IMG/VR virus record: IMGVR_UViG_3300006071_000052
Location: 1 to 33,006 of that record
DNA length: 33,006 nt
Reading direction: 5' to 3' (one strand)
Origin: a virus
Part shown: one piece after another, positions 26,682-33,006 of the stretch
Numbering within the stretch: position 1 is the first letter of the stretch
Layout of the letters: each line of letters starts with the position of its first letter
Program-made: the position numbers and the translations under genes
The notes under the pieces: generated by a model
Database searches by the model: none
What the model was told of the DNA's origin: nothing
What the model saw: the letters and a program-made list of their open reading frames with translations, nothing else

Positions 26682-27278
26682 TTGAATATGTTAACATTTG
26701 AACAAATACTTTCTAATTGGAAAAGATATATAGAAATTCAAGCTAATAGCTATTTTAAACCAAATGATACCGTACAAGATTTAAAATTAGCTGGTACTGA
26801 AGGTCTTTGGGTTGCCTTCAATAAATGGGATAAATCTAAAAATTTTGGTCCATATGCAATATCCTATATAAAATCATATATGCTTAATTACTTACAACGT
26901 TTCGATGGTCAAATTTACATACCTAATACTCACTATTGGCAAACTAAAAATGAATATATAACCAGTAGTCTCAACCAATCAATAGATTTTGATGAAAATC
27001 TTGAATTACAGGATATATTACCTTCAGAACCTATATTACCCTCAATTGAGGATAAAGAGGCTGTAATAGCTCAAAATGAGCTTATAGAGGATTTATTATC
27101 TGAATTAAAACCAAAAGACCAATTAATAATAAAAATGTATTACGGAATAGGATATGATTTTTCAAAAAATGGAGAACAAATAGCAGAAACTCTTGGTTGT
27201 ACCAGACAAAACATATCATCAAAACTAAAACTAATTCATAAAAAATTAAAAGAAAAATGCTCACAACAAAAGAAATAA
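26682..27278 (+). CDS. Sigma-70 family sigma factor
   Basis: A 198-residue phage sigma factor. Region 2 spans about 15-72, with LAGTEGLWVAFNKWDKSKN at 36-54 and PYAISYIKSYMLNYLQ at 57-72. IYIPNTHY at 78-85 resembles the IRIP-type start of region 3. Region 4 covers about 133-190, with KPKDQLIIKMYYG and the recognition helix area GEQIAETLGCTRQNISSKLK at 164-183. It is the first rightward gene out of the repeat region, so it probably acts early to direct host RNA polymerase to phage promoters. It overlaps the next gene by 22 bases. Confidence 0.88.
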   Translation: MNMLTFEQILSNWKRYIEIQANSYFKPNDTVQDLKLAGTEGLWVAFNKWDKSKNFGPYAISYIKSYMLNYLQRFDGQIYIPNTHYWQTKNEYITSSLNQSIDFDENLELQDILPSEPILPSIEDKEAVIAQNELIEDLLSELKPKDQLIIKMYYGIGYDFSKNGEQIAETLGCTRQNISSKLKLIHKKLKEKCSQQKK

Positions 27279-27808
27279 ATGAACTTTATGAAAAACTAAA
27301 ATTATATTCAGTAAACTTTAGCTTTATGTATCTTTATTGTTCACCTCACGACAGGAATACAATCATAAATAATGTGATGGTGAACCTGGTACAGAAGATG
27401 AATGAGGGTAAAGTATCAAAAGTTTGGAAGGAATCTGAGGGTTATATCACAAGGTCACTCTCAAATGAGTTATATAAAACATTCAATAAACGTAACACAA
27501 AAAGAGCAAAATATACTGAAAATACATTCCTTGAAGATGTGAGCTATCTATCACCAATAACTTATCAACCAGAACTTGATAAGAAAAGAACTGTAAAAGA
27601 TTTTTGTAAAACATTAACACCTAAAAGAAGAGCTTATTTTAGGTTTATTTTAAGAGGGTGGTCACAAATATATGCTGGTCAACAAATATTTGGATGGTCG
27701 AAAGAAAACAGTTGGAATCATTATGCTACATTAAAAAAAGATTTAAAAGAGTTTTTAACGAATACGCCGCCTAGAAAAAGATATGTCACTAAATTCAGTC
27801 AACTTTAA
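27257..27808 (+). CDS. Second sigma-factor-like protein (divergent)
   Basis: A 183-residue protein. The N-terminal half (NNVMVNLVQKMNEGKVSKVW, then GYITRSLSNELYKTFNKR) reads like a helical sigma region 2, and the C-terminal segment TPKRRAYFRFILRGWSQIYA followed by IFGWSKENSWNHYATLKKDL like a region 4 helix-turn-helix. Conservation to known sigma factors is weak. It overlaps the true sigma gene by 22 bases, so the two are co-translated and may act together. Its 3' end overlaps a minus-strand gene by 54 bases. A DNA-binding regulator without sigma activity is an alternative. Confidence 0.55.
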   Translation: MLTTKEINELYEKLKLYSVNFSFMYLYCSPHDRNTIINNVMVNLVQKMNEGKVSKVWKESEGYITRSLSNELYKTFNKRNTKRAKYTENTFLEDVSYLSPITYQPELDKKRTVKDFCKTLTPKRRAYFRFILRGWSQIYAGQQIFGWSKENSWNHYATLKKDLKEFLTNTPPRKRYVTKFSQL

Positions 27809-29112: not shown

Positions 29113-29482
29113 AGAATCAACTCAACTATCAATCGGAATGCTAAAGGATATAAAACACTTACATAAATTTGTAAATTATTGCGAACATCTTCAAGAAGAA
29201 GATGATGATGAAAATACACTATGGCTTCAACAAATAGTTAGCCTCAAGGCAACTAGAGACGAATTATTAGATGATGCCGTCCAAACTCTTGAAGTATATT
29301 ATAAATGGCTTCAAGTGGCCCAAAAAAACGAATTATACGCATCCTGTGGCCTAATATGGGATTGTATCCAAATTGAAACAAGACATTATATTCAATTGGG
29401 TAAAGCCCTTAAATATAACATTAATAAAGACCTACAAGAAATTAATGAAGAATATAAAAAACAATACTTGTATGTGTTGTAA
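29090..29482 (+). CDS. Hypothetical helical protein
   Basis: A 130-residue protein, mainly helical, acidic in the first half (EHLQEEDDDENTLWLQQI) with two cysteines near 106 and 112. No family recognised. It overlaps the previous small gene by 23 bases and precedes the third sigma-like gene by 13 bases, so it is part of one operon. Confidence 0.65.
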   Translation: MKQESKYKESTQLSIGMLKDIKHLHKFVNYCEHLQEEDDDENTLWLQQIVSLKATRDELLDDAVQTLEVYYKWLQVAQKNELYASCGLIWDCIQIETRHYIQLGKALKYNINKDLQEINEEYKKQYLYVL

Positions 29483-29495
29483 ACCAACATCCAAA

Positions 29496-30005
29496 ATGGA
29501 TATAATTAGACAATTGGCTAGTAATGAACAACTTTTATATGAACTTAAAAACATTCACCAAGCTGAATACACAGATGACGTAATTCAAGATATTTGGCTC
29601 AGATTTATTGAGTGTGAAGATGAAGATAAACTTATTAAATTATGTGAACAAAACCAAATGAAATTCTACCTAATCAGAATTCTTATCAACCAAACCAGAA
29701 GTAATAACTCAAAAACCAATAGGACATATAAAATAAAAACAGAAATCAATCCTCTCACATTAATCAATATGACAGAAGAAACAAATAATATTGATAATGA
29801 ATTGGTGCAAGATATTATTACATCAGAATTAAATAAATTAACATTTTACGATAGAAGAATTTTTGAACTTGTGGCAAATTCATCTAAGACATTCAAAGAA
29901 CTTGAACAAGAAATTAAAATTAAGAATTATAATATATTCTACACTTTTAATAAAGTTAGACTACAATTACGTAAAGCTCTAAAAAAATACGATTTAAATG
30001 AATAA
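29496..30005 (+). CDS. ECF-like sigma factor (third sigma-like protein)
   Basis: A 169-residue protein. Region 2-like sequence YTDDVIQDIWLRFIE (about 24-38) is followed by KFYLIRILINQTRSNN (about 57-72), which matches the sigma region 2 order of a D-D-[V/I]-Q-[D/E] helix and an N-x-x-R-[S/N] end. The C-terminal part (LTFYDRRIFELVANSSKTFK, then QEIKIKN) fits region 4 with its helix-turn-helix. I chose the ATG at 29496 because it has an A-rich leader; 29472 would add eight residues (MCCKPTSK). Its last 8 bases overlap the next gene. Late-gene activation is the natural role (inference). Confidence 0.65.
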   Translation: MDIIRQLASNEQLLYELKNIHQAEYTDDVIQDIWLRFIECEDEDKLIKLCEQNQMKFYLIRILINQTRSNNSKTNRTYKIKTEINPLTLINMTEETNNIDNELVQDIITSELNKLTFYDRRIFELVANSSKTFKELEQEIKIKNYNIFYTFNKVRLQLRKALKKYDLNE

Positions 30006-30198
30006 TGACTTTAAGTACATCAAACAACTATTAAAACAAGGTCTTGTCTATAAAAATGATAGAAAAAAGATATTTAAGCTATATAATAAGTATTTTAAAC
30101 AATACCCACAAGGTAAAATAACTTGTGGAGGTTGTATAAAAGATACTCTTGAACAATTAAATAAATACCTAATACTAATAAACTTTATAAATAACTAA
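29998..30198 (+). CDS. Small hypothetical protein with a Cys-Gly-Gly-Cys motif
   Basis: A 66-residue basic protein with ITCGGCIKDTLEQLNKYL at 41-58, containing C-G-G-C at 43-46. A single CxxC could bind a metal only with a partner, or be a redox site. It overlaps the sigma-like gene by 8 bases and ends 1 base before the ATP-grasp gene. Confidence 0.6.
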   Translation: MNNDFKYIKQLLKQGLVYKNDRKKIFKLYNKYFKQYPQGKITCGGCIKDTLEQLNKYLILINFINN

Positions 30199-30199
30199 T

Positions 30200-31477
30200 A
30201 TGTCAAAATCAAATCTGAGAGCTGTTGTGGTAGAAAATGTGGGTGGTATGTATCTACCACTTGCCGTTGAATTATCTAAATACTTTAGCAAAATGTATTA
30301 CCATACAGCCTACCAATCACCATTCCCCTATATGGCACCAGACCAAGTTGGTACTGGTTATGTTCAAATTGAAGTAATACGTAACTTCTGGGATAAACTT
30401 GACCAATTTGATGTGGTAATTTTCCCAGATATCTACTTTGAAGATTGGGGAGTAGCACTTAAAAAACTTGGTAAACTAGTTTGGGGTGGTGGACCTAGTG
30501 AAGATATTGAGACAAATAGAAACCTATTCTACGGCATACTTGAACGCCTTTATATGCCAAATGGTGAATACCAAACAATAACTGGAATACAAAAACTTAA
30601 ACAATATCTTAAAAATAAGAAAAATGTATTCGTAAAGGTATCTTACTTTAGAGGTCAATTTGAAACATTCAATTGGATAAATCAACAACATAATGGAGTA
30701 CAACTAGATGAAATTGAATATAATCTAGGACCTCTAGGTGATACAGTAGAATTTATAGTTCAATCACCAATTAAATCAGATGCTGAAGTAGGTTATGATG
30801 GATACGCAGTTAATGGCAAATTACCAACAAAATTTATTCAAGGAATTGAAATAAAGAACGCTGGTTATCTTGGTAAGGCTGACTCATATTCAACAGCCCC
30901 TGAACCAATAACTCAAATAAATGATAAATTTGAACCAGCTCTTGTTGCCTACAAACACACAGGATTTTATTCGAGTGAAGTTAGATATGACTCTAAATCA
31001 AAACAATCCTACTATATTGACCCCTGTATGAGAGCTGGAAGCCCTCCTAGTAATACTTACCTAAGTATGATTGATAATTGGGACCAAATTATTGTTGAAG
31101 GTGCTAAGGGTAACCTAATTGAACCTCATTTTAAGGCTAAATACGGTTGTGAAATAATACTCAAGTCTAGCTATGTAAACCATAACTTTCTACCAATTAG
31201 CTTTCCATCAGAATATAAAGATAATATCAAATTAAAGGGTTCTTTCATTAAAGAAGGAATATATAATATAATACCATTCCAAAAGGTAGTAGGATATGAA
31301 TTAGAAGAAATAGGTAGCGTAGTAGTAATAGGTAACGATTATAACCAAATACTAAAAGAAGCTCTCAATATAGCTAGTAAAGTAGAAGCATATGACTTGA
31401 GATACGAAGAAACTGCACTTGAAAAAGCCCTTGAACAAATGAATAACCTTGAAGATAAACTAAAATTTAAATTCTAA
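30200..31477 (+). CDS. ATP-grasp enzyme, GARS-like (phosphoribosylamine-glycine ligase-type fold)
   Basis: A 425-residue ATP-grasp ligase. Landmarks in order: WGGGPSEDIETNRNLFYGIL at 95-114, matching the GP..E..K segment before the ATP-grasp domain; KNVFVKVSYF at 141-150 with the ATP-contacting K146; VEFIVQSPI at 183-191; and YIDPCMRAGSPPSN at 272-285, matching the metal-binding E/D-x-N/C-x-R-x-G-x-P loop of this family. Known relatives join a carboxylate to an amine via an acyl phosphate. Purine synthesis is possible, but no other purine genes are here. Position between the sigma-like gene and terS, followed by two tiny Cys-containing proteins and a HAD phosphatase, suggests a small modification module. 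Substrate not identified. Confidence 0.75.
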   Translation: MSKSNLRAVVVENVGGMYLPLAVELSKYFSKMYYHTAYQSPFPYMAPDQVGTGYVQIEVIRNFWDKLDQFDVVIFPDIYFEDWGVALKKLGKLVWGGGPSEDIETNRNLFYGILERLYMPNGEYQTITGIQKLKQYLKNKKNVFVKVSYFRGQFETFNWINQQHNGVQLDEIEYNLGPLGDTVEFIVQSPIKSDAEVGYDGYAVNGKLPTKFIQGIEIKNAGYLGKADSYSTAPEPITQINDKFEPALVAYKHTGFYSSEVRYDSKSKQSYYIDPCMRAGSPPSNTYLSMIDNWDQIIVEGAKGNLIEPHFKAKYGCEIILKSSYVNHNFLPISFPSEYKDNIKLKGSFIKEGIYNIIPFQKVVGYELEEIGSVVVIGNDYNQILKEALNIASKVEAYDLRYEETALEKALEQMNNLEDKLKFKF

Positions 31478-31481
31478 ATAT

Positions 31482-31577
31482 ATGAAAGAAGAATTAACAG
31501 TAGTAATTAAATACTTTACTTGCGAACAATGTGATGAAATGATTGAACTTTGCACTTGTGATGATGATGAAAAATAA
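31482..31577 (+). CDS. Tiny Cys-rich acidic protein, zinc-ribbon-like
   Basis: A 31-residue reading frame with YFTCEQCDEMIELCTCDDDE, giving CxxC and CxC pairs, the layout of a small zinc ribbon. It begins 4 bases after the ATP-grasp gene with an A-rich leader. It is too short for confident gene calling, but the regular spacing and Cys pattern support it. Confidence 0.55.
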   Translation: MKEELTVVIKYFTCEQCDEMIELCTCDDDEK

Positions 31578-31599
31578 CATATATTAAATATAAACTCAT

Positions 31600-31698
31600 A
31601 TGAAACTAAATCAATTAACTAATAAATGTGGATGTAAAGGAAAACCAACTCCTCAACCAACACCTCCACCTGTTGTAATACCAACTCCTAGCAAATGA
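31600..31698 (+). CDS. Tiny Cys/Pro-rich peptide
   Basis: A 32-residue frame with CGCKGK at 10-15 followed by a Pro/Thr-rich tail (PTPQPTPPPVV). Its TGA overlaps the next ATG (ATGA at 31695-31698), which strongly suggests a translated, coupled gene. Small Cys-Gly-Cys plus Pro/Thr peptides could be modification substrates of the upstream ATP-grasp ligase or scaffolding peptides; no family supports either. Confidence 0.55.
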   Translation: MKLNQLTNKCGCKGKPTPQPTPPPVVIPTPSK

Positions 31699-32012
31699 TA
31701 AACTTCGATAAACAAATATGGGGTATAGACTTTGATGGTACCCTAGATAAACCAATATGGCAATTTACAACTTGGTACCTAAAAGAACAAGGTAAAACAA
31801 TATATGTAATCACTAATAATAGCGATAAACAATATATTTACCATACTACAGATAGACTTCAAATACCAAGAGAAAATGTAATATTTACTGAACATCAACC
31901 AAAATCAGTACCAATAAAGTTACATAATATTGAAGTATTTATTGATAATACTCAAGAAGTTCTAGATGAAATTAATAAAAATGCTCCTAATACACAAACT
32001 ATATTAGCTTAA
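31695..32012 (+). CDS. HAD-superfamily phosphohydrolase, small
   Basis: A 105-residue protein with motif I WGIDFDGTL (D12, D14, T16), motif II ending VITNNS (T40), a Lys in the QPKSVPIK segment for motif III (K70 or K75), and motif IV VFIDNTQEV (D84, N85). All HAD motifs are present despite the short length, so it has no cap domain and should act on exposed phosphate groups. Its start overlaps the previous gene by four bases and it ends 2 bases before the small terminase. It could act on nucleotides, polynucleotide ends or a phosphorylated product of the ATP-grasp step. Confidence 0.8.
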   Translation: MINFDKQIWGIDFDGTLDKPIWQFTTWYLKEQGKTIYVITNNSDKQYIYHTTDRLQIPRENVIFTEHQPKSVPIKLHNIEVFIDNTQEVLDEINKNAPNTQTILA

Positions 32013-32014
32013 TT

Positions 32015-32656
32015 ATGGCAAAAAAAGTTGATGCTTATATACAAAGAAAATTAGAGGAAAAGGAAAACCCTAAGCCTAAACCTAAAAATAATTCAGAGAA
32101 AAAACACCTAAAAACAAAATGGGATGAAGCTCTGAATGAAAAACAATTAGCATTTATAAGACATATAGTGATGGATAATATGTCACCACAACACGCTTAT
32201 TTGGCTGTTTATAAGGGTGTTAGTAGGCCAGTAGCTAGCACTAACGCCTACCGACTTTTGAAGAAGCCAGCAGTAAAGACTGCTTTAACTGAACTATCTG
32301 AACAAAGGAAAGCTTTAAGTAACATCCCTAAGTCGTTCATTTTGGACAAGTTAAAGGAAATATTATCTAAGGCTGAAGAGGAAGGAAACTTCAAATATCA
32401 GATAGAAGCTCTTGATATGGTTAATAAGATGATGGGTCATTATGAGACAACAAAGACGAATATAAATGTCAACTTGACAGAACAGCCAATAAGTTTTGGC
32501 GGTTATAATCCTGATGAGTTTATCGAATTAGAATCATCAGATACACCTCTTATAACTGACTCTGAAGAGTCTAATGAATATGAGGTTGAGGGCTATGATG
32601 ATAGAACCGATAACATAGATGAGTTACCTATTGAGCCAGATAGTAATGATATATAA
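32015..32656 (+). CDS. terS: Terminase small subunit (TerS)
   Basis: A 213-residue DNA-recognition subunit. After a Lys-rich arm, residues about 40-90 (LNEKQLAFIRHIVMDNMSPQ, HAYLAVYKGVSRPVASTNA, YRLLKKPAVKTALTEL) form the helix-turn-helix pattern typical of the Terminase_2 small subunit. The central helical part would form the ring, and the acidic C-terminus (from about 165) is suited to TerL contact. It is followed directly by the repeat-rich spacer that leads to terL on a circular map, where its DNA-binding sites would be expected. Confidence 0.85.
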   Translation: MAKKVDAYIQRKLEEKENPKPKPKNNSEKKHLKTKWDEALNEKQLAFIRHIVMDNMSPQHAYLAVYKGVSRPVASTNAYRLLKKPAVKTALTELSEQRKALSNIPKSFILDKLKEILSKAEEEGNFKYQIEALDMVNKMMGHYETTKTNINVNLTEQPISFGGYNPDEFIELESSDTPLITDSEESNEYEVEGYDDRTDNIDELPIEPDSNDI

Positions 32657-32777: not shown

Positions 32778-32928
32778 TTTGTTTAAACAAATATTGTAGA
32801 TAGTCTACTAAGTTGATAGGTTAGGTGGTTAGATAGTTGATTAGATAGTCTACTAAGTTGGTAGGGTAAGTGATTAGATAGTCTACTAAGTTGATAGGTT
32901 AGGTGATTGAGACATTTGTTTAAACAAA
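32778..32928 (+). repeat. Three 33-bp direct repeats framed by 14-bp palindromes
   Basis: AGATAGTCTACTAAGTTG occurs at 32798, 32843 and 32876, each beginning a unit of about 33 bases (the first carries about 12 extra bases). The perfect palindrome TTTGTTTAAACAAA lies on both sides at 32778-32791 and 32915-32928, each preceded by TTGAGA plus two bases. The array is in the terS-terL spacer, where phages often place packaging or TerS-binding sites. It is also compatible with an origin or partition site. Confidence 0.75.
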
Positions 32929-32944
32929 AGTTGGTTAGGTTGGT

Positions 32945-33006
32945 GAATTACGTAAATGTTAATATTTTGAAGGACGCAATCTCAATTACACTATAACAAG
33001 AAAAAA
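32945..33006 (+). repeat. Repeat pair upstream of terL and terminal direct repeat
   Basis: GAATTACGTAA at 32945-32955 and AATCTCAATTACACT at 32978-32992 repeat the pair seen at 1421 and 1454 with the same 33-base offset. The last 28 bases repeat exactly at 21-48. Read on, the sequence would continue into terL. Confidence 0.75.

Follow-up and report, generated by a model that had tools for sequence, protein, structure and literature searches.

We describe an apparently new family of ATP-grasp ligases, large and virus-encoded, whose members probably attach an amine during late infection, because in other phages the ligase gene is frequently paired with the gene of a probable amine-making enzyme. 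The member studied here is encoded in an IMG/VR virus record of 33,006 bp with 30% GC, the whole of which is referred to as the window. The most economical reading is that an amine-making decarboxylase supplies an amide ligase whose gene sits among head and tail genes. In its full form, which we put forward tentatively, the ligase, acting late in infection, forms an amide bond between an amine and a carboxylate, with the amine supplied by the neighbouring decarboxylase or, in the lineage of the window, by the host. This would give a testable reason for the presence of SpeD-like genes without spermidine synthase in some phages, namely that they feed an amide ligase. If true, it would also mean that late in infection phages produce a conjugated amine, which might serve virion assembly or the packaging of DNA, and it would connect the puzzle of polyamine genes in phages with a concrete enzyme.

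The ligase gene and its neighbours in the window are the following.

29998 to 30198, plus strand: small protein with a CGGC motif, directly 5' of the ligase (tblastn match to L016)
30200 to 31477, plus strand: GARS-fold ATP-grasp ligase, 425 aa (profile match to PurD, AlphaFold/Foldseek, invariant residues)
31482 to 31577, plus strand: 31-aa Cys4 mini-protein, CxxCDEMIExCxC plus acidic tail (homologues in L020 and L119)
31600 to 31698, plus strand: 32-aa CGC-Pro/Thr peptide frame (chance unlikely jointly with the 31-aa frame)
31695 to 32012, plus strand: capless HAD phosphatase-like protein, 105 aa (four HAD motifs; homologues in L016 and L119)
32015 to 32656, plus strand: terminase small subunit terS (PHROG_51, E 1.2e-11; Pfam Terminase_2, 4.7e-7)

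As the first-pass annotation had described, the ligase, the two tiny frames and the HAD gene form one tight run before terS, with successive spacers of 4, 22, -4 and 2 nt, and the end of the 32-aa frame is coupled to the HAD start by an ATGA overlap. The terS neighbour places this module among the late genes, which in the window include terL (83-1390), portal, head protease-like and tape measure genes besides terS; as the ligase gene lies among head, packaging and tail genes, its product is probably made late. The small CGGC protein that precedes the ligase matches its positional counterpart in L016, encoded immediately before the ligase there (tblastn 6.6e-6), and this counterpart retains the CxxC, as CGNC.

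Upstream of the module lie two genes, 26682-27278 and 27257-27808, whose small products resemble sigma factors (PHROG sigma factor at E 5e-25 and 3e-8); near both of them, the frame 29373-30005 has only a marginal PHROG sigma match (E 0.55). Repeats of the TAGATAGTCTACTAAGTTG type with GTTTAAAC palindromes are found 3' of terS (32780-32960). About 28 bp by the left end (ATCTCAATTACACTATAACAAGAAAAAA) are found again at the right end, which suggests that the genome is circularly permuted or nearly complete.

Taken as a single sequence, the window ligase gave no Pfam, PHROG, NCBIfam or PDB sequence match, and tblastn against 50,697 phage records gave none either. A profile built from 14 relatives matches PurD structures (2yw2, E 6e-5; 3mjf; 2xcl; 1vkz), and Foldseek with the AlphaFold model (pLDDT 87.7, pTM 0.89) returned PurD chains as its top 15 matches (2yw2, TM 0.76), with carboxylases, amino acid ligases and PurT/PurK below them. 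The model and these matches reveal the ATP-grasp fold together with a pre-ATP-grasp domain, and the initial assignment as a GARS-like ATP-grasp enzyme is upheld. Among BFVD viral models the best query-normalised TM was 0.44.

Across 124 sequences, E104, K146, R151-G152, E155, D200, E217, K219, E260, D274, R278, P282 and N293 are invariant, E260 and D274 supplying the acidic positions of the final strands in the kinase-like domain. The ATP-grasp template comprises a basic linker residue and a lysine in the RAGNYA strand (PMC4431377); in the family the former, located via the PurD alignment, is R107 in 123 of 124 sequences and Lys in one, and the latter, located by order and conservation, is K146 throughout. 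This linker residue sets the family apart from the R2K/CDC123 clade (PMC4431377), which is likewise phage-encoded, of ATP-grasp type and predicted to form peptide-like bonds, but in which R2K lacks the basic residue. Most members have D-P-C or D-P-T in place of the ExN motif, which is typical of ATP-grasp enzymes and not universal (PMC4431377), and R-x-G-S-P-P in place of the R-x-G-D-P-E of PurD. Given the PurD fold and the invariant residues on one side and these two replacements on the other, the window ligase is very likely an active enzyme, as predicted from its sequence, and not an ordinary PurD. An ExR formed by E260 and R262 was considered as a mark of a peptide-ligase clade and rejected, as the published ExR sits in another strand.

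Seed scans using the ligase and terS found no relatives; these first came to light through the motif IDPxxRxGSPP, scanned for at the DNA level. With IMG/VR profile scans (the best 80 of 218 and the best 80 of 161 stretches, and 9 from a third scan for the window clade), about 124 distinct relatives were gathered, nearly all from uncultured viruses. Identity to the window ligase is 77% for L016, 56% for L020 and 30-39% over most of the length for many others. Searches with two further members against the 50,697 phage records, and with one member against plasmids, gave no match. A GTDB motif scan gave one true match, in Bradyrhizobium YR681, and two surveys of related genomes found the ligase in 1 of 399 and 1 of 385, the same Bradyrhizobium genome each time. 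This sole member from a bacterial genome record (L109, Bradyrhizobium sp. YR681) is on a 31,428-bp contig, probably of a phage, and has a SpeD-like gene upstream. The family appears almost confined to viruses and is without a match in Pfam, PHROGs or, for the window member, NCBIfam; the expectation of an undescribed system was justified in that the ligase family is apparently undescribed. Among 70 large flanking proteins, portal, terminase and tail proteins make up most of those with an assignment, and the adjoining structural gene varies by lineage, being a tail gene in some and a portal or terminase gene in others.

Outside the window clade, the commonest partner of the ligase is a SpeD-like (AdoMet decarboxylase) gene, located upstream in 49 of 123 distinct loci and ending -13 to +15 nt from the ligase domain start in 34 of these 49. 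The partners in L035, L052 and L059 score above the Pfam AdoMet_dc cut-off (E 6e-16, 3e-15 and 1e-7), others match it more weakly (E 2e-4 to 0.04), and against the PDB the sole matches of a partner profile were AdoMetDC structures, at weak scores (best E 0.005). The pyruvoyl Ser63 and the Cys83 named for SpeD / class 1b AdoMetDC (PMC10407285) both have equivalents in 49 of 49 partners. At the position of His68, 42 partners have Asp, six have His and one has Glu, and it is because of the Asp in most of them that their catalytic activity is uncertain. Several phage SpeD homologues act on ornithine or arginine as decarboxylases and have no AdoMetDC activity (PMC9992855, PMC10407285); the ligase partners are like these phage enzymes in keeping the pyruvoyl Ser and the catalytic Cys, and unlike them in mostly having Asp for the expected His. 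The word ‘ligase’ occurs in neither of these papers and ‘ATP-grasp’ is missing from PMC10407285, so no link to the ligase family is described there, and a literature search found no paper tying ATP-grasp to SpeD or arginine decarboxylase in phages. Spermidine synthase (PF01564) was found in none of 16 such virus records, with a positive control, which makes spermidine synthesis an unlikely role for the partner, although a host enzyme might stand in.

The strongest argument for the amine reading comes from L007, in which a PvlArgDC (pyruvoyl arginine decarboxylase, E 5e-45) lies beside the ligase and the 14-kb record contains no SpeD-like gene. In the tree, L007 nests among SpeD-bearing lineages, and the replacement of the SpeD-like gene by an unrelated PvlArgDC in this lineage suggests that the two share a product. 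Neither a SpeD-like, nor a HExxE, nor a PvlArgDC neighbour is present in 49 of the 123 loci, some of which are incomplete. Apparent fusions of SpeD or HExxE to the ligase were rejected on inspection as artefacts of stop-to-stop frame ends.

We therefore see the constancy of the ligase, with decarboxylase, HAD and Cys-rich mini-proteins alternating around it, as favouring an amide ligase that joins an amine and a carboxylate. On this reading, the window protein would be an active amide ligase; its family, specific to viruses, has the fold of GARS (PurD). The recipient of the amine could be a virion protein, a small metabolite or DNA. To judge from the fold and the intact active site, ATP would turn the carboxylate into an acyl phosphate, which the amine would attack to give an amide and ADP. 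In many relatives the gene pairing indicates that the adjacent decarboxylase, SpeD-like or in one lineage PvlArgDC, is probably the local source of the amine, and the presence of PvlArgDC suggests agmatine or a similar product of amino acid decarboxylation. As the window encodes no recognisable decarboxylase, its phage would draw the amine from the host, and the HAD and Cys4 proteins would be optional helpers. The weakest points of the amine reading are the loss of His68 in most partners and the lack of a decarboxylase in the window clade; moreover, an ATP-grasp fold does not reveal the substrate.

In the tree, the window forms a 100/100 clade without SpeD together with L016/L026, L020, L028 and L029. 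Neither SpeD nor PvlArgDC was found in the four other clade records, nor SpeD in the window, though the records may be fragments; with neither decarboxylase found in these records, the amine role in the clade is an extrapolation. The Cys4 frame has homologues directly 3' of the ligase in L020 and directly 5' of a HAD-ligase fusion in L119, and thus adjoins the ligase in three virus contigs, the window included. The four Cys are kept in all three, with tails CDDDEK, CED and CEE, and the mini-protein probably binds metal. In IMG/VR the Cys4 motif was found in only 5 stretches (the record of the window not among them), 2 of them beside a ligase. No Cys4 frame lies beside the ligase in L016, and neither Cys4 frame nor HAD does so in L029 and L197-L201, in most of which the ligase is directly followed by a tail gene; L028 has another Cys-rich frame. 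A second Cys motif, CHxNCQC...CDYC, is found in a separate gene upstream of the L020 ligase and fused to the C terminus of the L189 ligase.

Among the 123 ligase loci examined, the 32-aa frame is confined to the window. Of first-order Markov resamplings of the 217-nt gap, 0.02% contained two ATG frames of at least 31 aa that did not overlap, a figure that counts as support and not as proof, since both frames had been chosen after the fact. Together with a base composition by codon position that is compatible with coding, this rarity suggests that the 31- and 32-aa frames are probably real genes. The description of the third companion as a capless HAD was confirmed, with motifs I (DFDGT, DxDGT), II (T), III (K) and IV (D) invariant in the window, L016 and L119. 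Its homologue adjoins the ligase in L016, and in L119 it is joined to the ligase N terminus. By profile, the window HAD weakly matches class B acid phosphatases, and that of L016 matches PF06189 below the cut-off (E 1.7e-4). The neighbourhoods of the ligase homologues thus bear out the linkage to HAD (L016, L119) and to the Cys4 frame (L020, L119), and not the idea of tiny peptides as constant companions.

Several other functions have to be weighed against the joining of an amine. The ligase gene is constantly located among late structural genes, in the window clade often directly between tail genes, and its product could instead attach an amino acid or a short peptide to a protein of the virion or of the packaging machinery (tail, portal, terminase), without any connection to polyamines in this clade. 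ATP-grasp amino-acid ligases exist, and two of them (3vot and BacD/YwfE, 3vmm) are among the Foldseek matches, sharing the amide-forming ATP-grasp fold; yet their fold similarity is below that of PurD, they show no sequence match and their gene context is different. Such tagging, which is possible and in our view somewhat unlikely, leaves the pairing with decarboxylases without explanation, and the structural neighbour is not the same across lineages (tail versus portal or terminase). The first-pass annotation had considered a peptide- or DNA-modifying module plausible and a nucleotide salvage role possible. In a peptide-modification module of the graspetide-like RiPP kind, the tiny peptides would be precursors modified by the ligase. 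Both tiny frames are probably real genes and the Cys4 frame does adjoin the ligase in three contigs, but its conservation resembles that of a small metal-binding protein and not a variable core. Graspetide ligases are GshB/RimK-like, whereas the window ligase is GARS-like, and no precursor gene is conserved beside the ligase in most clade members. With most close relatives lacking either frame beside the ligase and the 32-aa frame lacking a homologue, peptide modification is not supported as a general function, and we consider it quite unlikely.

We find it improbable, too, that the Cys4 protein is a minimal phage carrier, whose acidic C-terminal carboxylate the ligase would activate and load with the amine, with HAD processing the adduct. 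LysW, the amino-group carrier used with the ATP-grasp ligase LysX, is a tiny Cys4 protein with an acidic C-terminal EDWGE tail, and the window likewise has a tiny acidic-tailed Cys4 protein next to an ATP-grasp gene. However, the window protein lacks EDWGE, the ligase is GARS-like and not RimK-like, and most family members are without the mini-protein. If true, this would be a very small amino-group-carrier system and a lineage-specific branch of a broader decarboxylase-ligase pathway in phages. A true phosphoribosylamine-glycine ligase or a nucleotide-salvage enzyme would agree with PurD as the nearest fold and profile, along the full length and in the order of the ATP-grasp elements, and with a nucleotidase-like role of the adjacent HAD, as the sub-cut-off PF06189 match could indicate. 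It is very unlikely in our judgement: the family has only ~12% identity to PurD, has exchanged GDPE for GSPP and ExN for DP(C/T) in most members, and pairs with amine-making decarboxylase-like genes away from purine genes, and no other purine gene was found among the window proteins scanned, in agreement with the initial annotation. Equally improbable to us as the carrier is a role in modifying phage DNA or nucleotides, which the proximity to packaging genes and the HAD partner could suggest, but no enzymes of this kind were seen among the scanned window proteins, except a protease-like protein with a methyltransferase-labelled PHROG.

Besides the decarboxylases, a small HExxE-type protein neighbours the ligase in 32 of 123 loci, with H48, E52, D70 and H91 invariant, and its high-confidence model matched no solved fold. 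Both HExxE-type neighbours tested by Pfam, encoded 3' of the ligase at L056:2690-3382 and L058:4890-5585, combine the metal-site-like HExxE protein with an Erv1/Alr sulfhydryl oxidase domain (E 8e-8 and 6e-7). Within the ligase itself, L010:1798-4152 carries an intein-like insertion inside the conserved RGD-ETF motif. The ligase C termini of L014, L022 and L024 share a short motif (~G.ISD+..DK), perhaps an interaction tail, which is also found in nearby small basic proteins of L053, L074 and L048.
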